Shown here piece by piece: positions 36,294 to 55,365 of a stretch of DNA of 55,365 nt. The DNA lies in assembly GCA_024762975.1 (NCBI GenBank), contig JANTGJ010000005.1, positions 1 through 55,365 on the forward strand, written 5' to 3'. Source of the stretch: Candidatus Krumholzibacteriia bacterium. GTDB lineage: Bacteria > Krumholzibacteriota > Krumholzibacteriia > LZORAL124-64-63. A program made the translations under genes and the position numbers. The notes beneath the pieces were generated by a model, which was not told where the DNA came from, made no database searches, and was given only the letters and a program-made list of their open reading frames with translations. How positions within the stretch are numbered: the first letter of the stretch is position 1; every line of letters starts with the position of its first letter.

Positions 36294-36458
36294 CTTCAAG
36301 CCAACCTCTTCCAGAATCTGGATCCTCTTCCGGCCGCCCCCGATCCATTGTGATCTGTGGGTTATTTCTTTATGGTACCTATTGATCCATCAGGTGGATG
36401 GTGCCGTCGGTTCGCTCCCGTTTTCCCATTGGTTTCGCAAGGTTTGAGGAGGCGATTC

Positions 36459-36647
36459 ATGCTGGATCCGAAGTTGCTCGAAATTCTCGCGTGTCCCGTT
36501 TGCCGGCAGTCGGTCGAAGCCGACGAGAAGCAGGAGTGGCTGTTGTGCCGCAAATGCTCGGTACGGTACCGTGTCGAGGGTGACATCCCCATCATGTTGC
36601 CTGAAGAAGCCGAGAAGATTCCCGGTCCCCATCGTGAGGGAGAGTAG
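36459..36647 (+). CDS. Trm112-like zinc ribbon protein (UPF0434)
   Basis: A 62-residue protein starting MLDPKLLEILACPVCR and containing a second CRKC pair, which together form a zinc ribbon, then VRYRVEGDIPIMLPEEA. This is the UPF0434/Trm112 family (E. coli YcaR type), small cytoplasmic proteins; eukaryotic Trm112 activates methyltransferases, and the bacterial role is poorly known. A strong GAGGAGG ribosome-binding site precedes the ATG. Six bases separate its stop from the next gene, so the two are co-transcribed although their functions seem unrelated. Confidence 0.9.
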   Translation: MLDPKLLEILACPVCRQSVEADEKQEWLLCRKCSVRYRVEGDIPIMLPEEAEKIPGPHREGE

Positions 36648-36653
36648 CGGACC

Positions 36654-39600
36654 ATGTGTCTTTTCACTCATTTTGCCGCGGGAGCGTTGACCGGTGCCGC
36701 GACCGGAAATGTGGGCTGGGCGGCCGTGGCCGGAACCGCGTCGCACGCCGTACTGGATGCGATTCCTCATTACGACCACCCCGATTGGCGGGTCGAATTG
36801 GCGGGGGGAGTTGCCGCACTGCTGTTGCTGCTGCTGATGCCCTTTGTCAGTCCCGCTGCCGTAGTGGGGGGGATCTGCGGCATGCTGCCCGATCTGGAAA
36901 ATTTGTTTCAAAAGTTGGGGTGGATGGACCGGAAACGACGTATTTACCCTTCCCACAACGGTTGGGTCCCGCACGGGCGTTCGTTGGGTCCTCGTGCGAT
37001 TCTGTGGCAGTTCGCAATTTTTGCCGCCTGTTTCCTCGCCCTCGGGCTATTCAACCCGGGAACAGCTCTGGCCGCTGCCGGAACCGATGTCGCGCGGATG
37101 GACCGCCCGCGGGTGACGGTGGTCAGTGGCGACCGGGATCAAACGGTGCTGCGTCTGGATTTCCCCGTACTGCAGATGCCGACGGACTGGGACCGGATTT
37201 CTGTCGAGCAGGTCGACTTTGCGTTGCCGTCCACGATCGAGGAATCCGTGCCGGAGCAGGTCGAGATTCTGCCGCCGCGGATGTTCGTCAGTGTGGCCAT
37301 CCCGTCGAGAAAAGCCCCGCAGGTCGAAGTACTGGGCGCCCGTTGGTGGAAGGAGCCGCTGGCGGAGGTGGCAACCGACGACCTGGTTTCGTTCTCTCTT
37401 CCTTCCGTGTACCGATCCGTTCCCATCAGTGGCGCACGGATTCCTCTGGCCGCCCGGGGTGGTGTTCTGCGATCGCTCACCGTACGCCTGGATCACCAAG
37501 CCGACTCGCGCTGGCTGGCAGAGGAATCGGCAGCCAAATCCTTGACCGAACCCGCCACGAGAACCTGGCGGGAGACGCCGCCCATGGGGCTGGCCAATCG
37601 CTCTCTGTTCGAACAGATGCGGGACACTTCGCGTCGCGCTTCCCTGGCGCGTGTGGCACAGAAATCATCGTTGCCCGAGTTGTTTTTTCTGACCGATCAC
37701 TGGGCGCGGTTGGAGATCGACGAAACCGGGGTCTATTCGGTGTCCGGACAGGACCTGCATCTGGCCGGCGTGACCAATACCTCGGTCCATCCCGCGTCGT
37801 TGCGACTGTATCGGGGGGGCGGATTGTCCCTGATGGCCGACCCGAGTGCCCCGGATTCGTTGCAAGCCGATCGCATCGGCTTGAATGAGGTCGCCATCGA
37901 GGTCCTGGGCGCTGAGGATGGCGAGTGGAACCTGGATGACGAGCTGCATTTCTACGGCGTAGCTACCAGTGCCTGGAGTGATCGCCTGGGCGCCTCGCCC
38001 GACCCGCTCGAACACTATGATCATCCGTACGCCGCGCAGGCAGTCTACTGGTTGACCTGGGATTCTACTGCCGTTTCTCCCTTGCCCGGCAGCCCGCGGC
38101 GCCTGGTAACCGATGCCGCAACGCCCCGCGGGAGCGAGATCCTCTCCACGGCACGGTTGCGTGGGCACCATGAACAACAGTTGCATTCGGACATCGGCCG
38201 GGTCGCGGACGATTTCGTCTGGTACAACGCGATCAACGCCAGCGTGACGGAGAATTTCAATCTTCCGGGAGTCGTGGCCGATTCCAGTGCCTTCTTCGTC
38301 GTGGACTGGCGCGGCGTGACGGACGAGAATTCGAGTCGCTACGACACCGCCGAAGCAGCCGCCTGGGCCAATGGTTCCCTCGCCACGCGGGTGGCGACCG
38401 GGTTTGCGATCACCGCCCAGGAGGATAGCCTGCGCGTCCGCCTGGCAGGACCGTTCACGCCTCTGGCAGACCAGCCCAACAGCATCAGCCTGCAGCGTAC
38501 CGGGGGCGATGGTGACCTCTGCCTGGACAGTTTCGATATCCTGTATTGGGCGGATCTGGACCTGCGGGTGCTCCCGGGCCAAACCGAGATCCCGATCTGG
38601 GCCGAGACCTCGACTGCCGACCAGGCCGATCTGGTCGTGGCCCCGCCGGCGGGGCAGCAGGTCCGGTTGTGGAATGTCACGGATCCCTCGACTCCGCGTG
38701 CATTGACCGGCGCGGCCTCGGGCGCCTACACCGGACGGACTGGATTCGGAATCGACCTGCCGCCCGGGCAGCACACCTATTTTGTCGCCTTCACATCGGA
38801 ACGGATGCTGGATGTCGGGCCGATCCAGGTGAGCAGTCCCGACCCGATCCGGTTGGACCCGAAGGGGGTGGACTATCTGGTCATCTACCCCGGAGAGTTT
38901 GCGCCGGCGGCCCGTGCGCTGGCCGACTTCCGCTCCACGATGCTGCCGGATACCGATTCGCCGGTGGCGGCGAGTTACAACGTGCAGGAGATCTACAACA
39001 ACTTCTCCGGTGGACAGAAGGACTGGCGCGCCATCCGCAACTTCATGCGCTATGTATACCAGAATGGTGGACAGCGTCTGCGGTACGTCTGTCTGATCGG
39101 CAACGCGTGCCGGGACTACCGCAATTACCTGGGGCGTACGCCGCAGGTCGATCTGTACTACGACTTCCTTCCTACTGAAGTACGCACCCCGTTCCCGGAC
39201 AATCCGACCTACGACCTCAGGGAATCGCCCTACGCGACGGACGACGGGCTGGTGTCTTTCGATCCTCCGGCCCTGCTGGATGTCGATTATCCCGATGTCG
39301 CCGTGGGCCGATTGCCGGCCGTGAACCTGGCCGAGGCCGAGTTGATGGTGGCCAACACCATCGCCTACGAGACCGAGACGGAGCCGGGCGCATGGCGCGA
39401 TCGGATCCTGATGGTGGCAGACGACACCCATAAGCGCGGCGTGATCCCCTACTCGGGAGAGCACAAGCATACGGTCGAGGCCGAGATGCTTTGCGAGAAT
39501 CTGGTTCCCACATCGATCGACGCCGTAAAGATCTACGCCGTTGCCTATGATCTGCCGCCCGGTAGTACCAACAAGCCCGAGGTTCGGGCCGATATCAACA

Positions 39601-41078
39601 TCGGTTTGAATGAGGGCACCACGATCTACCACTATATCGGCCATGGATCGCAGGACAGCCTTGCCGATGAGCGGATTTTCGAGATCGAGGACATCCCGGC
39701 ATTGACCAACGGAATGAAACGGGGCCTGTTCGTGGCCTTCAGCTGCGACGTGGGCGTATACGACAGCACGAATCGGCGTTCGATGGGCGAGGTCTTCCTG
39801 ACCAGCGACGCCGGCGGCGCGATCGGGTCGATCACCGCCAGCCAGGTCAGTTACAGCACCGAGAACGATGTGCTGACCAACGCCTTCTACCGGGAGCTGT
39901 TCCCGGACCGTGAAGTGGATCTGACGCAGGGTATCGGACAGGCCCTGCAGCGCGCGAAGGCGGAGATGTACTACTTCAACGCGCGTCGGAATTCCCAGCG
40001 CTACAACCTGATGGGCGACCCGGCCCTGGTGCTGCCGCACCCGCGCAATGATCTGCAATTCGCTTCCGACAGCCTGGATTCCCTGATGACCGGCAGACGG
40101 CACCAGGTGCGTCTGGGAGAGGCCGGCGACCTGCTGATGCCCGAAGCCGGGGACAGTTACGACCTGCGGGTGGAAGAGTCATCGGTCACCCGATACTACG
40201 AATTCGTCTACTATCCGAACCCGGATTCCCTGCTGAGCTACGTCGAACGTGGCGAAGCCGTTTTCCGGGGTACGGGGACCGCCGACGGGGACCAACTGGC
40301 CGTGGATTTCATGGTACCCAAGCAGATGCGCTTTGGTCCGGATGCCCGCGTTCGGATGGTCCTGACGACTCCCGAGGGAGAGCACGCCGCGGAGGTCCGG
40401 GTGCCGGCCGTCCGCTCGCCGCCGACGGCGAATGAAGATGTCCACGGGCCGAGCATCGAACTGGCGTTCGCTGACCACCTGCAGAGTGTCCGCTCCGGGG
40501 CCCTGCTCGAGGCGCAACTGAGCGATCCGAGCGGGATCGCGATTCTCGGGACCAGTCCCATCACGAGCATTCTGCTGGAGTTCGATGAGACGGGATTCAT
40601 GACCGATATCACGCCGTCCTTCCGCTACGATCCGGACAGTTATACGACCGGCCGGATCGGCATGGCCCTGCCCGCGGACATGGAACCCGGAGAACATGTG
40701 GTTTCGTTGTATGCGGCGGATGCGTTGGGAAATGTCGGCAGTGATACGCTGTCCTTCCGGATCCAGGATGAAATCACGACGGGCATCGCTTCGGTGGCGC
40801 TTTTTCCTAATCCGACCCACGGCCCCTGCCGATTGGTATTCGATCTCGGAGAACCGATGCACCTGCGGTGGGACATCTACACACTGGCGGGACATTGCAT
40901 CCGTACGATCGAGGCCGATTTCGAGGAGGCCGGGCGTTCCCAGATCGAGTGGAACGGGCGGGACGACCAGTCGGACGAGATCGCCAATGGTACCTATCTA
41001 TATGTGCTGAGAGGACGAAGCGCGAGCGATCCGGAACACCCATTCCACCATACGGGCAAACTCGTGCTCATGAGATAG
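36654..41078 (+). CDS. porU: YdjM-like membrane domain fused to PorU-like C25 peptidase with sorting-like C-terminus
   Basis: A 1474-residue protein. Residues 1-135 resemble small YdjM-like membrane proteins (FTHFAAGALTGAATG, SHAVLDAIPHYDHPDW, LPDLENLF, PSHNGWVPHGR) with three hydrophobic segments (about 5-30, 50-75, 115-134). The third runs into GTALA-140, a plausible signal-peptidase site. Then comes a large beta-rich region (140-740) and a peptidase C25 domain (about 740-1130) with VDYLVIYPGEFAPAAR, VAVGRLPAVN, catalytic His997 (YIGHGS) and Cys1031 (AFSCDVG). The end (about 1385-1474) is a FlgD-Ig/type-IX-sorting-like domain with SVALFPNPTHGPC and a GNGTYLYVLRG-like strand. The next gene is a PorV-family barrel, matching the porU-porV order of Porphyromonas. 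An internal ATG at 36924 (residue 91) has only an abutting GGGGTGG. The reading frame is continuous through the junction. Confidence 0.8.
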   Translation: MCLFTHFAAGALTGAATGNVGWAAVAGTASHAVLDAIPHYDHPDWRVELAGGVAALLLLLLMPFVSPAAVVGGICGMLPDLENLFQKLGWMDRKRRIYPSHNGWVPHGRSLGPRAILWQFAIFAACFLALGLFNPGTALAAAGTDVARMDRPRVTVVSGDRDQTVLRLDFPVLQMPTDWDRISVEQVDFALPSTIEESVPEQVEILPPRMFVSVAIPSRKAPQVEVLGARWWKEPLAEVATDDLVSFSLPSVYRSVPISGARIPLAARGGVLRSLTVRLDHQADSRWLAEESAAKSLTEPATRTWRETPPMGLANRSLFEQMRDTSRRASLARVAQKSSLPELFFLTDHWARLEIDETGVYSVSGQDLHLAGVTNTSVHPASLRLYRGGGLSLMADPSAPDSLQADRIGLNEVAIEVLGAEDGEWNLDDELHFYGVATSAWSDRLGASPDPLEHYDHPYAAQAVYWLTWDSTAVSPLPGSPRRLVTDAATPRGSEILSTARLRGHHEQQLHSDIGRVADDFVWYNAINASVTENFNLPGVVADSSAFFVVDWRGVTDENSSRYDTAEAAAWANGSLATRVATGFAITAQEDSLRVRLAGPFTPLADQPNSISLQRTGGDGDLCLDSFDILYWADLDLRVLPGQTEIPIWAETSTADQADLVVAPPAGQQVRLWNVTDPSTPRALTGAASGAYTGRTGFGIDLPPGQHTYFVAFTSERMLDVGPIQVSSPDPIRLDPKGVDYLVIYPGEFAPAARALADFRSTMLPDTDSPVAASYNVQEIYNNFSGGQKDWRAIRNFMRYVYQNGGQRLRYVCLIGNACRDYRNYLGRTPQVDLYYDFLPTEVRTPFPDNPTYDLRESPYATDDGLVSFDPPALLDVDYPDVAVGRLPAVNLAEAELMVANTIAYETETEPGAWRDRILMVADDTHKRGVIPYSGEHKHTVEAEMLCENLVPTSIDAVKIYAVAYDLPPGSTNKPEVRADINIGLNEGTTIYHYIGHGSQDSLADERIFEIEDIPALTNGMKRGLFVAFSCDVGVYDSTNRRSMGEVFLTSDAGGAIGSITASQVSYSTENDVLTNAFYRELFPDREVDLTQGIGQALQRAKAEMYYFNARRNSQRYNLMGDPALVLPHPRNDLQFASDSLDSLMTGRRHQVRLGEAGDLLMPEAGDSYDLRVEESSVTRYYEFVYYPNPDSLLSYVERGEAVFRGTGTADGDQLAVDFMVPKQMRFGPDARVRMVLTTPEGEHAAEVRVPAVRSPPTANEDVHGPSIELAFADHLQSVRSGALLEAQLSDPSGIAILGTSPITSILLEFDETGFMTDITPSFRYDPDSYTTGRIGMALPADMEPGEHVVSLYAADALGNVGSDTLSFRIQDEITTGIASVALFPNPTHGPCRLVFDLGEPMHLRWDIYTLAGHCIRTIEADFEEAGRSQIEWNGRDDQSDEIANGTYLYVLRGRSASDPEHPFHHTGKLVLMR

Positions 41079-42338: not shown

Positions 42339-45300
42339 ATGGAATTGATCTCCAGGTCATTGAATTCCGACCGGAAGCAGCGGTCTGCACGGCGCATCAC
42401 GCGCCTGGGCTGGTGGTTTTGGATCGCGGGCGCGCTGGTGCTTGCGTGGACTACTCCCGTCACGGCGCAGCCGGACGGGGACGATCACGGCCACTCCTAT
42501 GAACACGTCCCGGTCTGGGGCCGGGGGCTGGAAGATCTGAAGATCCTTCCGGATGGGCAGGAACGCATCGACGCCGAGCTGCACCGGCAGGGAAAGTATG
42601 CCGAACGCTGGCGTGAGATCCATGAACTGCTCGGAGCGAGCCATGTCTCGCACAAGGGACAGGCGTTGCTGGAACGGCGGGGCCTGGGCAGGGCTTTGCT
42701 TCGGAAAACTCCGGGAGCGCCGGTCGCGGACAAATCGGGGGAACCGGATCGCCTGCGGGTGCTCATCGTCCGTATTTCGTTCGAGGAAAATCGACTGCCG
42801 AATCTGACGACGATTCCCGCCGACGGCGATTTCATGCTCGATCCGTTGGAGGAACCGGGACCGATCGAAGTGGATCCGCCGCCGCATGATCGAGCCTATT
42901 TCCAGGCCCACCTGCAAGGACTTTCCGAGTACTACCAGTACCAGTCCGGCGGCCGTTTGATCATCGAGGGGGACGTGCTGCCGCACGATCCCCATGGCTC
43001 CTACAAGCTGGGCGACATTGCCGACTATGGCCCGGGCGAGGGCCGTAGCTGGGGCGATGGATACCTGGATGATCTCGAGCGCCTGGTTCATGACATGATC
43101 GCCGTGACCGACTCGACGACCCAAGCCAACGGCACGGTCAATCTGGCCGAGTACGATGACGACAATGATTTCACGTACGTGATCTTCGTGCACTCGGGCA
43201 GTGACTGGCAGAGCGACGTGAACGGCGACTCGCCGAACGACATTCCGACCTTCTTCATCACCCTCGGCGAGCCCGTGGAATTGCTGGGTACGGATCCCGA
43301 GACGCAGACACGCGGCCTGTTGGGCGAAGTCTCGGTCATCCCCGAGACCACCAACCAGGATGGCTACCCGGGCAGTATCGCCGCCGCTCTGTATCATGAA
43401 TTCGGCCACGCCCTGGGTCTGGTGGATGTCTACAATACGGAATATGGCACACCCAATGCGGGCATCTGGGATCTGATGGATTCGGGCACGAACCTGCCGG
43501 TGACCCTGGGTGATATTTCCGACACGGGAGATACCACGATCGTTACGGCCGTCGGGGTTCTGCCGCCCTCGCTGGGAGTGTGGAACAAGTGGTTCCTGGG
43601 CTGGCTCGAGATGGGCGAAGTCGACGGCCGGTCCGGAAGCTACTACCTGCCGCCGGTCTGGGTGCCGCGCGAACAATACGGCAATTACGGGCTGAATACG
43701 AGTTGGCCGCAAGCCCTGCGTGCCGGGATCTCGCCGCGTGAATTCTTCCTGTTGGAAAACCGCTGGGTGCCCGATTTGACGACCGAGGAGGTGCCGTTCA
43801 ACCAGGTATTCTTCAGCCGTGATCCGGACACTCAGGTGATCCTCTTCCTGGGGGGCGAGTGGGGCGGTACCGAGGGCAACACCGGCATGTATGACTACTT
43901 CCTGCCGCCGGGTGGGGTCCTTGTCTGGCATGTGAACCAGGATCGCATCGAAGCGGGCCTGGCCGACAATACCATCAACACCGAATGGGACGGACTCCGT
44001 CTGGTCGAAGCGGACGGGATCGAGGATATCGGAGTCCTGGATTCGTTCGTGTTGGGCTGGTATGGAACCTCCAACGATCCCTTCGCCGAGCACAATGGAT
44101 TCCAGAACCTGTATGTCGACGGCTATCCGAACTCGCGCGCGTTTGATCGTTCGTGGACCGGACTGCAGTTGAGCGACGTGCGGCAGAATGGTCTGCGCAG
44201 CGCCAAGACGATGCGCTTCGAAGCGACGATCCACCACGGGGTTCCCGGCTTTCCCTGGGAAGCGGCGCCGATCGATTCGGTCGAAGCCGAGAGCACTGAT
44301 GGTTTCGAGGGACCGCGCGGAATCGATCCGACCTCGTTGACGGTGGCGAGCATCAACGGTAGCGATGTACTGGTCTTTGCCGATCAGGCGCCCGATACAC
44401 TGACCGGCCAGGGTCTGCCTGCCTATGACCACTTCCCGACCGCGCTCTACGCGTTGCGGACCGACGGGCATCCGGCTCTGCCGCTGCTGGCCGATCGTCC
44501 GGTGGGGGCTTTCCTGACCCTGGAGGCGCCGCTGGCCGGACCGCCGACCTTTACCATGCCTGAGGGTGGGCCCTCGTTGCTCCAGTTCGGGACGAAGCAG
44601 GGGATGGCCCATAGCTTCTACCTGTTGTACGGAGCCGCACCGGTCGAGCGTTGGAGTACCTCGGCGGGGGATACCCTGCTGCACGCACTTCTGCCGTTGA
44701 CCGTCAACGAAGGTCAGTTCGGCTGGCTGGCTGCCACCGAGGGGGTGTTGCGGATCCTGGCCGACAGTGACGGTTCGCCACTTCCGGAGTCCTACAACTA
44801 CACCGATGTTGTTTTCGACCCGGCTTTCGCCGGGCCGAACGAGCTCGTGTGTGCTCCGCAGATCCTGTCTTTCGGAGATGGCAGCGACCAGATCGCCGCG
44901 ATCACCCAGGCGGGTTGGCTGCGGATTCGACCCGGTCTCAACACGATTTCGGACGTCCATCCCTTCGCTCGTTTCCCGCTCGAAGCACCGGTCTATGCGG
45001 CGGTGCTTCCCGACGGCGACGATCTGCAGTTGCACGTATTCGATGCGCGCGGCGATGTGGGCGCGTGGGAGTTGGGACCGGACGGTTCGGTGCGCGAAAT
45101 GGAAGACCGGCTCGATTTCTCGGACCCACTCGTGACCGCCCCGGCGGTAGCCGATGTCGATGGCGACGGACGGCACGACCTGGTATTGGCCACGGCGACC
45201 CGCATCAGCGCATTCGGACCGAGCGGTACCGGTGCGGTCGGTTATCCACTGGCCTTGCGCGATCTGTTCCCGTTGGCGGACAGCACTCGCGTCCGCGGCC

Positions 45301-45962
45301 CGTTGATCGTGGCCGATGCGACCGGCGATGGAGTCGGTGAAGTATTTTTCCAAACCAGTGGGGGCCATCTGTTCGGCATTGCGCCAGGTGGGCGACTGCT
45401 GCCCGAAACGCCCCTGCGCTGGGCGGATCGCAAGGATGCCGGATTTGTCGTCGGCAGCAGCGCTGTAGAAGGGGAGCGGGCGCTCTGGATGGCCACGCCG
45501 GGGGGCTATACGGGACCGCCCCTGGACCGTGGCTACGTCAATGGCCGCATCATGGGGTTCGATCTGGGACCGGCGGCGCCGCCGAACGAGAGATCGAGCG
45601 AGTGGTTGGGCCTGTACGGCGGATCCGCTCGCTCGGGTGTCGTCGGAACACCACAGGGAATCGAGGTCGCCGGTCTTCAGCAACCGGAACAGACGGGTGC
45701 CTACTTCTATCCCAATCCCTTGCGGGATGATACCGTGACCTTGCGTTTCTACGGACAGGGAACCGGCCAGGGCCTGTTCACGCTGCACACGCTGGAGGGC
45801 GAAGAGGTCACTCGCCGCGAGTTCCAGGTTGACGAGGGAATCGTCAATGAGCTCGAGATTTCTCTGCCGCGGATTGCCAGCGGCATGTACATCGGCCGGC
45901 TCCTGGCTCCGAGTGGATCCGGCACCGAAACCACGACCTTGACCCTGGCTGTCGAACGGTAG
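42339..45962 (+). CDS. M6-like secreted metalloprotease with C-terminal sorting domain
   Basis: A 1207-residue exported protein. The signal peptide has a charged N-region and a hydrophobic core (24-38), with likely cleavage at VTA-43. The M6 (immune inhibitor A-like) peptidase domain carries His353-Glu354-x2-His357 in YHEFGHALGLVDVYN and the Met-turn-like GIWDLMDSGTN. After about residue 640 the protein is beta-rich, with an FG-GAP/propeller-like AVADVDGDGRHDLVLAT. The last 85 residues begin GAYFYPNPLRDDTVTLRFY and include IASGMYIGRLL, resembling a type IX C-terminal signal. Placed directly after porU-porV, it is a likely cargo of that machinery. AAGGAG precedes the ATG. Confidence 0.85.
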   Translation: MELISRSLNSDRKQRSARRITRLGWWFWIAGALVLAWTTPVTAQPDGDDHGHSYEHVPVWGRGLEDLKILPDGQERIDAELHRQGKYAERWREIHELLGASHVSHKGQALLERRGLGRALLRKTPGAPVADKSGEPDRLRVLIVRISFEENRLPNLTTIPADGDFMLDPLEEPGPIEVDPPPHDRAYFQAHLQGLSEYYQYQSGGRLIIEGDVLPHDPHGSYKLGDIADYGPGEGRSWGDGYLDDLERLVHDMIAVTDSTTQANGTVNLAEYDDDNDFTYVIFVHSGSDWQSDVNGDSPNDIPTFFITLGEPVELLGTDPETQTRGLLGEVSVIPETTNQDGYPGSIAAALYHEFGHALGLVDVYNTEYGTPNAGIWDLMDSGTNLPVTLGDISDTGDTTIVTAVGVLPPSLGVWNKWFLGWLEMGEVDGRSGSYYLPPVWVPREQYGNYGLNTSWPQALRAGISPREFFLLENRWVPDLTTEEVPFNQVFFSRDPDTQVILFLGGEWGGTEGNTGMYDYFLPPGGVLVWHVNQDRIEAGLADNTINTEWDGLRLVEADGIEDIGVLDSFVLGWYGTSNDPFAEHNGFQNLYVDGYPNSRAFDRSWTGLQLSDVRQNGLRSAKTMRFEATIHHGVPGFPWEAAPIDSVEAESTDGFEGPRGIDPTSLTVASINGSDVLVFADQAPDTLTGQGLPAYDHFPTALYALRTDGHPALPLLADRPVGAFLTLEAPLAGPPTFTMPEGGPSLLQFGTKQGMAHSFYLLYGAAPVERWSTSAGDTLLHALLPLTVNEGQFGWLAATEGVLRILADSDGSPLPESYNYTDVVFDPAFAGPNELVCAPQILSFGDGSDQIAAITQAGWLRIRPGLNTISDVHPFARFPLEAPVYAAVLPDGDDLQLHVFDARGDVGAWELGPDGSVREMEDRLDFSDPLVTAPAVADVDGDGRHDLVLATATRISAFGPSGTGAVGYPLALRDLFPLADSTRVRGPLIVADATGDGVGEVFFQTSGGHLFGIAPGGRLLPETPLRWADRKDAGFVVGSSAVEGERALWMATPGGYTGPPLDRGYVNGRIMGFDLGPAAPPNERSSEWLGLYGGSARSGVVGTPQGIEVAGLQQPEQTGAYFYPNPLRDDTVTLRFYGQGTGQGLFTLHTLEGEEVTRREFQVDEGIVNELEISLPRIASGMYIGRLLAPSGSGTETTTLTLAVER

Positions 45963-47863: not shown

Positions 47864-48882
47864 TGGGGACGGGGCGCCGGCTTCCCCTCCGTCCGCTCCT
47901 GCGGCTGATCGCGTGCGCCCTGCTGATTCCCTGTGTTGCCGGACTCACCGCCTGCGTGGTTCCCGCTCCCGAATCCTCGCGATTGGCGGCGGGGCCTGCG
48001 TTGGCCGGGCGCCACGGCAGTCAGGTCGTGGCTCTCGAGTTCGTGGCCGCCTATGAGAACGACGCCTCCGAACCGTACTACCCTCTCGAACGGCTTGCCG
48101 GTTGCGAATACGCCCCGGACGGAACCCTCATCGTTTGCGATGATTTGCGCGGCAAGGTGCATGGTCAGGATCCGCGAACGCTGCGCTGGTTCGAATTCGA
48201 CACTCCCTATGGCGGTGGATTCCAACCGGTCGATGTGCGCGTCGACGGGTTTCGGGTTCTCGTGCTGGATCAGGGCGGCGGAGCGATTCATCACCTCGAC
48301 CTGTCGGGAGCCTATCGGGACGAATTGGTCGATGTCCGACAGTTGGACCCGGGGGCCGTGGTGCAGCCGACCTCCTTCGATATCGACCGCGACGGGCGCA
48401 TGGTGATCGCCGATGCCGGTCAGCAGGAAGTCCTCTTGCTCGACACCTTCCTGAGCTTGCATACCCGCGTCGGTGGGCCCGGTCCCCTGGATGACCAATT
48501 CCAGTTCCCGGCCGGAATCGTTTTTCGGGACGACGGCAGTTTCGTCGTGGCAGACCGGGGCAACAGTCGCCTGGCCCTGTACGGCCGCAACGGTTTCTTC
48601 GAACGCAGTGTGGGAGGCTCATTCGATCCGGTTGCCATGCTTTCGGCTCCCGGGGGTGTGGACCAGGATCGACATGGCAATCTTTTCGTCGCGGACCCGG
48701 GGTCGAGCCTGATCCACATTTTCGATGCCGCTCTTCGGCCGGTTTTCAGTGCCGGCCGCGAGTTCACTCCCGAAGGCACTCCGCTGGCGCCGGTCGACGT
48801 GGCGGTCGGGCCGGATGGGCAACTGGCGGTCACCGACCGGGCCCGCTCGGCGATCCTGGTGTACCGCATCATCTACCAGTGA
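47863..48882 (+). CDS. NHL-repeat beta-propeller lipoprotein
   Basis: A 339-residue protein with a lipoprotein signal, LTAC with lipidated Cys31. The mature part has repeats of the NHL type, each with a hydrophobic-G-hydrophobic pattern and a short DxxGxxxVADxxxxRI-like core, for example QFQFPAGIVFRDDGSFVVADRGNSRLALY, LSAPGGVDQDRHGNLFVADPGSSLIHIF and PLAPVDVAVGPDGQLAVTDRARSAILVY. Five to six blades can be counted, so it should form a beta-propeller anchored to a membrane, probably the outer membrane. Overlaps with both neighbours (TGATG and GTGA) imply tight translational coupling with the preceding DUF5683 gene and the following barrel gene. Confidence 0.82.
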   Translation: MGTGRRLPLRPLLRLIACALLIPCVAGLTACVVPAPESSRLAAGPALAGRHGSQVVALEFVAAYENDASEPYYPLERLAGCEYAPDGTLIVCDDLRGKVHGQDPRTLRWFEFDTPYGGGFQPVDVRVDGFRVLVLDQGGGAIHHLDLSGAYRDELVDVRQLDPGAVVQPTSFDIDRDGRMVIADAGQQEVLLLDTFLSLHTRVGGPGPLDDQFQFPAGIVFRDDGSFVVADRGNSRLALYGRNGFFERSVGGSFDPVAMLSAPGGVDQDRHGNLFVADPGSSLIHIFDAALRPVFSAGREFTPEGTPLAPVDVAVGPDGQLAVTDRARSAILVYRIIYQ

Positions 48883-51800
48883 GGGCCCCCCCGGCGCTCC
48901 TGTTTCTCCTGGGCGCTGTGGTGCTCACTACCTGTCTGTGCGTGGGGATTCCTGCCCACGCGTCGGATGGTCCTCTGGCCGACGAACGCGAAATCCACCT
49001 CCTGGAAGCTGGTACCCAACCGCTGAAACTCGCTCACGGATTGATCGACCGTACCGATGTGGCGGTGTACGTGGATGGTCGGCGCTGGCTTCTGGATGAG
49101 GATTTCCAGCTCCAAAGCCGCAGCGGAAGGATTCAGCCCCTGCGCGATTGGCACTCCGACCGGGATGCGAAATCTCCGGACGAGTCCGCCCTGGTCATCG
49201 TAATCTACCGATTCCACCCTGTGGCGCTGTTGCCGCGCATCGATTTGCGACCAACGATGTCGCCGCCGAAAGCGGTCAGTGGTTTCATCCATTCGGGCGG
49301 TATCTCGCCGGACCCCGGACCGCTGACGGCCGGGATGTCCGGTGCCTCCGATCTGACGGTTCGCGGCAGCAAGTCGGTGCAGGTCTCGTCCGGCAGTCGG
49401 CGTGAAATGACGGTCGATCAGAATCTGCGTCTGGATATCAGCGGCAGCCTGACGCCCGAAATCGCGGTACGTGCCTTCATGACCGACGACAATTTGCCGG
49501 TGGTGCCGGAAGGAAACACGGAAGAACTGCGTGACATCGACAAAGTGTTGGTGGAGATCCAGGGTCCGGCGTGGCGCGCGACGCTGGGAGATTTCGTGGC
49601 GCGTCGCGAGGGATCGGTGTTCGGCCGCTACCGGCGCAAACTGCAGGGGATCTCGTTGGCAGCGGATCCGGGCGCTGCCCGGCTGGAAGTCCTGGCCGGT
49701 TCGCCTCGCGGTCGCTACCGCAGCCTGCAGGTGCAGGGGCAGGAGTCCAATCAGGGGCCCTACTACCTGGGCGCAGATGCCGGCGCCGAGAACCTGTTCA
49801 TCGTCGCCGGGAGCGAACGGGTCACCCTGGACGGCACGCCACTGGTCCGCGGGGCCGACCGCGACTACGTCATCGACTACCTGCGCGGCTCGGTGACCTT
49901 CACCTACCGCCGCCTGATTACCGCCGAATCCAATATCGTGGTTGAATTCGAACAGGGCGAGGGTGCCTATTCGCGCACGGTCCTGGGAGGGGGCGGCGGC
50001 GCACATGCGGTGGCTTCCCGCTGGAGAATCCCGTTCGACCTCTCCGTCCGGGTCGTTCGCGAGAAGGATGATCCCGGACGCCTGCGAACCGGGGAGTTGA
50101 GTGATCAGGATGAGGCGACCCTGGCGGCCGCGGGCGATGATCCGCGACGCGCCGTAGCTTCGGGAATCACCGAAACGGCAGTCGGCGAGGGGTTGTATTC
50201 CCGCCAGGTTACGGCGGGAGATACGATCTATGTTTTCCAGGAGAACGGAGAATACAATCTCCAGTTCTACTACGCCGGCGGTGGGCTGGGAGACTACGAA
50301 CTGTTGCGGTTGGACGAGTTGGGGCGCCGCGTCTTTGCTTACCGGGGCGAGGGTCTGGGCGCGTATCGCATCGGACGGCCGTTGGAGCGGCCGGAGTCGC
50401 AGAGTCTGGCCACTCTGGTCGGAAGCGTGGGCGACTCGACAGGATCGAATCTGCAAGCCGAATGGAATGTTTCCTCGGTCGACCGGAATCTGCTCTCCTC
50501 TGCGGACGACGGCGACAATTCCGGAGGCGCCGGCCGCCTGAGTGGACACCTCGCTGCGCAGGATCTCGCCGTTGGCGGTCGAAATCTGGGTCGAGTGTCC
50601 TCCGACATTTTTCTGGAGACCCGGCAGAGCCGCTTTCGGCCGTTCGAGTTGCGTCGCAATCGCTTCGACTACGAACGGTGGGGGCTCGGGGATCGCGCCC
50701 GGCGCGATGGGTTTTTGGAGGAATTCGACCGGGAATTGGGCTGGGACGGCCGATGGGAAGCCGGTTCCGATCGACGGCGAGCGTCGCTGACCGGTCGCCT
50801 GGGCAGTCTGGACCACGGTGTTTCGCTCGAGGCCGGGCAGTGGGCCGTCGATAGCGAGTGGCAATGGGGCGGCGCGCGCGGTCGCCACCGCGAACAGCGG
50901 GCCACGGCTTCCGACCGTGTCGAACCGCTGGATATCCGGAGGGAGAATCGTGCGCATGAAATCGCGTGGTCCATCGGACCGGTCGTTCCCTCCGCCCGCT
51001 GGAAGCGCTCCCAGTGGCGCGACGAAGCCCGGTCCCCGGAAACCGCGGCGGGCTATCGCCTCTCCGAATTCGGATATGGAATGAGTTCGGCTGCAAGCGG
51101 AGGTCTGGCCTGGCGTGCGGATTTTGCCCGGGCGCTGGCTGATTCCCTGTACGACGGGACCTGGCGGCGGGAGCGTGACAGCAGAACCCTGCAGGGAGGA
51201 GTGACGACCGGCAGATGGTGGGGTATGCGCTGGGTCGGTGAGGGTACCTGGCGCCGCACGGTGCGCCCGGCAGGCCAGGAGGAATCGACACGCCTGGGCC
51301 GCCTGGATCTTTCCGGAGTCTGGCCTCATCTGCACAGCGACTGGTCCGTCGGCTACCGACTGGATAACAGTCGAGCCCGGGTGCTGGATCGCCAAATCGT
51401 CTACATCGGACTTCAACAGGGCGATTACGATCAGGAAGGGCGCTATCTGGGCATCGATCAGGGAGACTACGATGTCCTCCTGGCCGCTACCGATTCGCTC
51501 GTCGCCACGACGGCGGTACAGACGGACCTGCGCTGGCGACAGGGGTTCGGCTTTCTGGGAAAGGATCGCTGGACCGGCGCCTGGACCGCGGTAACCCGCG
51601 CAACCGTGCAGGGACGCAGTACGACCGAACGGATCCGCGAGCTGTTGCTGCTCCAGCGGGGGGTCCTGTTCGATCGGGATCAGACGGTGCTGACCGAGAT
51701 CCGATTCTCCGAGGAGATGATCGTTCTGCAGCACCTGAAACGTTGGGATCTGCGGGGGCGCTTTGATTACGAGGAAGCTCTGGACCGGCAGTTCTCCCAG

Positions 51801-52302
51801 CATCCGGAGGATCGGGTTCGGCGCGGGTACCTCCTGAATTCCACCTGGACGGCATCGAAGCGCTTCTCCCTGCGTGGGCGGTGGCAGTTGGAAGACGACC
51901 GACGATCTTCGGACGAGAGTCTGGCCAGCGTTCGGCGCAGCTACTCCGTCACGACCCGCACGCACGAACTGGGCGGTGTGTTTCGTGCCTCGGCGGCCAG
52001 TCGAATGTCACTGCAGGGCGAGTATCTGCTACGCGATGATGCCGTTACCGGGGTCGAACAAACCGAATATGCGCTGCGCCCCGAAACCCGTCTGCGTCTT
52101 TCGGGATCGTGGAGCCTGCAGGGCCTGCTGCGAGTCGCGGAGGTGGATTCGCGTGGCGCAAGCGTGTTCGCCCGGCCGTGGTTCTTTCCCGAGCCCGGCC
52201 GCAACGTCGAGTCTTCGCTCCGGCTGAGCTGGGAGCCGACGCGATACCTGACGGTGGCCGGCAACTGGTTTGCCCGCAAACGTGGCGAGGGGAGGTGGGA
52301 GC

Positions 52303-55365
<3,063 letters not shown>

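Follow-up and report, generated by a model that had tools for sequence, protein, structure and literature searches.

A single reading frame that joins a polytopic membrane domain to PorU, the sortase of type IX secretion, raises the question of what the gene produces: a sortase held in the inner membrane, or two proteins cut from one precursor. Such a gene is found in the window, the 55,365-nucleotide stretch of Candidatus Krumholzibacteriia DNA that was analysed here. The reading favoured below, with a probability of about 0.8, is that of a two-product precursor, in which signal peptidase I would cut after Ala140, the membrane protein would stay in place and PorU would go to the surface.

The fused gene and its PorU part

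The gene and its direct neighbours are the following.

36456..36647, + strand: Trm112-like gene upstream of the fused gene (PF03966; gene order)
36654..41078, + strand: fused gene, membrane domain (suggested YdjM relative) and PorU sortase, 1474 aa
41139..42170, + strand: PorV-family gene downstream of the fused gene (NF033709, 171.5 bits against a cut-off of 90)

The uninterrupted frame of 1474 codons reported by the first-pass annotation was confirmed: it starts with ATG and contains no internal stop. A purine-rich stretch, GAGGGAGAG, lies upstream of the ATG, which follows the trm112 stop at a distance of 6 nt. The PorV-family neighbour passes the subfamily cut-off (NF033709) and falls below the PorV equivalog cut-off. 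Across relatives the order accA - trm112 - [membrane gene] - porU - porV is conserved.

Within the PorU part, four features were located.

38874..40034, + strand: peptidase C25 domain, residues 741-1127 (PF01364, E 7.7e-81)
39642..39644, + strand: catalytic His997 codon, aligned to PDB 6za2
39744..39746, + strand: catalytic Cys1031 codon, aligned to PDB 6za2
40872..41009, + strand: C-terminal Ig-like stretch (PF13860 FlgD_ig; type IX CTD region of PorU)

The PorU model NF033707 gives the fused protein 499.9 bits against a cut-off of 420, from position 4 to 1094 of its 1095 positions, on residues 347-1472 (37692-41069). The only solved relative returned by sequence search is P. gingivalis PorU (6za2), whose corresponding residues are matched by His997 and Cys1031. 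Judged from the full model coverage and these residues, the PorU part is intact, and its earlier description as a PorU-like C25 sortase with His997 and Cys1031 holds. It shares with ordinary PorU (NF033707; 6za2) the C25 domain, the catalytic His/Cys pair, the C-terminal Ig-like domain and the porV neighbour. However, it does not begin with an N-terminal signal peptide of its own; a five-helix membrane protein precedes it in frame.

The membrane domain and its suggested relation to YdjM

36654..37052, + strand: membrane domain, residues 1-133, five predicted helices (alignment, AlphaFold)
36915..36995, + strand: loop 88-114, putatively cytoplasmic, with invariant H101 and H107

The first-pass annotation had described a three-helix protein. 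AlphaFold predicts five helices instead, at residues 3-17, 20-35, 45-61, 67-87 and 115-132 (pLDDT 88.7), and also five in a stand-alone homologue, where the fifth is confidently packed. Loop 88-114 has on average 5.2 Lys/Arg in the fused relatives, and these residues are almost absent from the rest of the domain. This confinement would make the loop and the N-terminus cytoplasmic and put the end of helix 5 on the periplasmic side, in agreement with the positively charged cytoplasmic loop noticed earlier before the last helix. The alignment of the domain has 28 invariant columns, including a set of His, Asp and Glu common to the stand-alone proteins. Invariant residues are H6, S30, H31, D35, P38, H39, D41, E48, P79, D80, E82, N83, K87, H101, H107, G108 and Q119. 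Among them, H6, H31, D35, H39, D41, E48, D80, E82, N83, H101 and H107 would all be at the cytoplasmic side, a placing derived from the predicted helix ends.

The domain is the best conserved large part of the precursor, its core being 89-93% identical with omega values of 0.04-0.16 in close pairs. This bears on the proposal that the domain does no work of its own, being simply an elaborate export signal. Some genera of family f1 indeed do without it, and their PorU carries an ordinary signal peptide. But the strong purifying selection and the invariant columns argue against a mere passenger, and the proposal is considered distinctly improbable. The domain would rather be a stationary inner-membrane partner of PorU. 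As to what it resembles, a fold search of PDB and BFVD with the predicted model gave nothing significant, a sequence search of solved structures gave no match, NCBIfam gave no meaningful family and tblastn against plasmids gave no homologue.

The N-terminus had been taken as plainly YdjM-like, a statement that has to be weakened, since the domain stays below every curated cut-off. With the Pfam YdjM profile (PF04307), the domain of the window gives no match up to E=10, and the best relative obtains 13.6 bits against the Pfam cut-off of 29. Sub-threshold matches come in swapped order, with residues 50-104 on profile positions 8-64 and residues 25-38 on positions 96-109. Likewise, the motifs that YdjM arranges as PDxDH - HRGxTHS - SHxxxD are present in the domain in permuted order. 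Profiles were compared with hhalign against a YdjM family built by hand, a small and hand-picked set of 14 proteins taken from E. coli, from plasmids and from one relative. The native order aligned over 18 columns (probability 24%), whereas a circular cut at residues 37-49 gave 86 columns with a probability of 87% and a score of 39.7, the omission of the last helix and the choice of the cut point giving this test added freedom. Control scores were at most 12.7 for reversed profiles and 17.1 for shuffled columns. In the permuted alignment, which concerns residues 1-113 (36654-36992) and the stand-alone relatives, the C-terminal H-x-G and the N-terminal FTH are placed on the HRG-FTH of YdjM. The domain and the YdjM/DUF457 'membrane-bound metal-dependent hydrolase' family (E. 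coli YdjM) are both polytopic membrane proteins with the motifs PD(I/L)(D/E), H-x-G, FTH and SHxxxD in common, but those of the domain are circularly permuted, with the break falling between HRG and FTH. A circularly permuted relative of YdjM is well suggested by these comparisons, not proven.

Fused and split forms among relatives

Full-length fused homologues, 44-55% identical over their whole length, were found in several genera of the same family when 38 whole genomes were searched. A profile of the N-terminal domain (A1) has matches in 46 of 80 genomes of the phylum. All 22 f1 genomes with the domain have it in a longer frame, and none has it as a free gene (0/22); the fused frame reaches at least 1468 codons in 16 of the 22, the others being shorter open frames, partial where checked. 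The genome of the window is a draft of 265 contigs, in which two genes might have been merged by assembly or by a frameshift. Such an artefact is excluded because relatives carry the same fusion, in many independent assemblies and in several genera, and chance is excluded as well. The in-frame fusion claimed in the first pass is therefore real. It also withstands the refuting conditions set there: the frame is intact in these assemblies, and no close relative having the domain encodes it separately, although some have no domain at all. A separate gene is restricted to other families of the class Krumholzibacteriia.

Absence from other phyla is taken from one scan, in which two short patterns were run against 84,980 named species. 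It returned 32 loci, whose records bear the names Krumholzibacteriota or Krumholzibacteriia, unclassified bacterium, Latescibacterota or Gemmatimonadales. The four records with Gemmatimonadales or Latescibacterota titles (L057, L061, L064, L065) are probably mislabelled; L064 groups with family f7 of Krumholzibacteriia in the PorU tree.

The free membrane gene, of about 135 codons, occurs in families f3 and f7 and in one f6 genome. Sixteen genomes have the split pair on one contig, with the membrane gene directly upstream of porU: the domain ends 639-722 bp before the NF033707 match begins. At the junctions that were read, the stop of the membrane gene overlaps the start of porU, mostly as ATGA, once as TGATG and in L066 as TTGA. 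A GGAG-like stretch is usually found within the last codons of the membrane gene, and porU starts with an ordinary signal peptide. The stand-alone proteins end a few residues past their fifth helix. The two genes are probably translationally coupled, and since the split gene is directly upstream of porU in three other families, the fusion would have joined a conserved pair. The split form would then have preceded it.

Translation from an internal start would be another way to obtain two proteins from the fused gene. The ATG at 36924 (Met91), which the first pass had named as an alternative start, is followed by charged residues and then by a hydrophobic helix. However, it is not conserved: the corresponding codon is CTT, TAT or TAC in L053, L056, L058, L059 and L062, and could not be used as a usual start. 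Moreover, no Shine-Dalgarno-like sequence is found upstream of it, in contrast to the GGAG-like stretch that goes with most true starts. PorU made from such a start is thus highly unlikely.

In six f1 genomes (L035-L040) and in several other families, porU carries a signal peptide of its own and no membrane gene intervenes. The PorU tree places the complete fused sequences in one f1 subclade (20 rows, SH-aLRT 99). Just outside, at an open fork, are the unfused g13 genera and G004, in which the 5' end of the fused gene is on a different contig; the split genes form a single clade. Locus L048 (493-10443) carries a tandem porU pair with trm112 between, one copy fused and the other with an ordinary signal peptide, the frames having the same lengths and places as in G060:C121. 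The unfused copy belongs within the fused clade, and aligns with the fused one just after the A-x-A site. One fusion followed by later loss is the simplest reading of this distribution, not an established one.

The fifth helix and the probable fate of two proposed products

36996..37073, + strand: fifth helix and c-region, residues 115-140, putative internal signal peptide
37065..37076, + strand: putative signal peptidase I site A138-L139-A140, cut before A141; fits relatives
37074..41075, + strand: presumed mature PorU, residues 141-1474 (NF033707; PDB 6za2)

The fused protein has no separate PorU signal peptide, and helix 5 stands in that place. An A-x-A-type site was seen by eye behind helix 5 in 20 of 20 fused relatives, mostly after Pro or Gly; the pattern carries little weight in proteins so rich in Ala, and common descent links the 20 sequences. 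Of 24-aa stretches drawn at random from these proteins, about 28% contain a loose A-x-A pattern. The helix and cleavage stretch, 46-75% identical, is the fastest-evolving part of the precursor, with hydrophobicity and site kept. Drift of this stretch beside a conserved core is as expected of a signal peptide. The AlphaFold confidence is 95-96 in helix 5 and drops to 67 and 52 over residues 131-150. Helix 5 appears to replace the signal peptide of PorU. The earlier idea that the last helix took over this job is supported by the A-x-A site and by the ordinary signal peptides of split relatives, and Ala140, then proposed as the peptidase site, fits the sites of the fused relatives.

The first pass had hesitated between a cleaved precursor and a sortase tethered to the inner membrane. 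In the latter case, the fusion would remain uncut and PorU would be held by the five-helix domain. Because the fifth helix of the stand-alone homologue is also confidently packed, helix 5 could be a plain membrane anchor. But the cleavage-like site recurs in every fused relative checked, the split relatives and the unfused L048 copy have cleavable-looking signal peptides, and in P. gingivalis PorU and PorV act together on the cell surface (PMC8545088), the porV gene being adjacent here. Cleavage fits the data much better, and tethering is judged unlikely.

The two-product precursor would be processed as follows. Translation would first yield an inner-membrane protein of five helices, its N-terminus cytoplasmic. 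Helix 5, starting in the cytoplasm, would pull the downstream part through the membrane via Sec, and signal peptidase I would cleave right behind it, at A138-L-A140 before A141. The membrane protein would retain helix 5 and remain in the inner membrane, its His/Asp/Glu cluster facing the cytoplasm. The freed PorU, with its C-terminal Ig-like domain, would reach the surface and act there with PorV as the type IX sortase. Two overlapping genes, probably coupled, would have been supplanted by one, and the ratio of their products fixed at 1:1.

It speaks against this reading that the last helix of a membrane protein seldom serves at the same time as a cleaved signal. A comparable case is the Bradyrhizobium cytochrome b/c1 precursor FbcH, which is encoded by one gene and cut by signal peptidase at an internal signal sequence. 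Both there and here, one gene specifies first an inner-membrane protein and then an exported one, the split point of the present precursor being the candidate A-x-A site. However, the proteins are unrelated, and both FbcH products stay in one inner-membrane complex whereas one product is here expected to leave for the outer membrane. If cleavage occurs as proposed, the gene would offer a naturally occurring example of a helix with two jobs, as last membrane helix and as export signal of the next protein.

Through adjacency, gene overlap and fusion, the type IX sortase is tied to a membrane protein that is conserved but uncharacterised, and this tie makes a role in surface anchoring directly testable. 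One may guess that the domain helps to make the surface anchor. A more precise and rather doubtful proposal is that it is an undescribed partner of the sortase, a permuted YdjM-type metal enzyme on the cytoplasmic face that would prepare or trim the lipid-linked anchor, to which cargo would afterwards be attached by PorU. In that case, coupling and then fusion would keep anchor enzyme and sortase in step. LpxE of P. gingivalis, whose activity is type IX-dependent, was considered as an analogue and ruled out, being a PAP2 protein.

The PorU of P. gingivalis, for which a signal peptide (M1-A23) is predicted, is located at the surface, where PorV anchors it, and couples cargo to A-LPS (PMC8545088). 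The usual description of type IX secretion confines it to Bacteroidetes (PMC7463736), and no paper in the library that was searched combines type IX terms with Krumholzibacteriota. A system test that covered translocon, PorV and cargo found all three in the source genome: pieces of Sov/SprA over the cut-off on contigs C69 and C73, the PorV-family gene and 62 Por_Secre_tail matches. Because of these genes, the PorU of the fused gene plausibly works as in P. gingivalis, as a surface sortase.

Further along the window, an M6-like protein with FG-GAP repeats (42339-45962) adjoins porV and matches NF052323 (T9SS-dependent inactivated M6) with 156 bits, below the cut-off of 600. A protein of 1152 aa (48879-52337) shows no more than a short SprA-like patch (28.9 bits) and no Pfam match; the end of its gene is overlapped by an Omp85-family gene (52270-54156).
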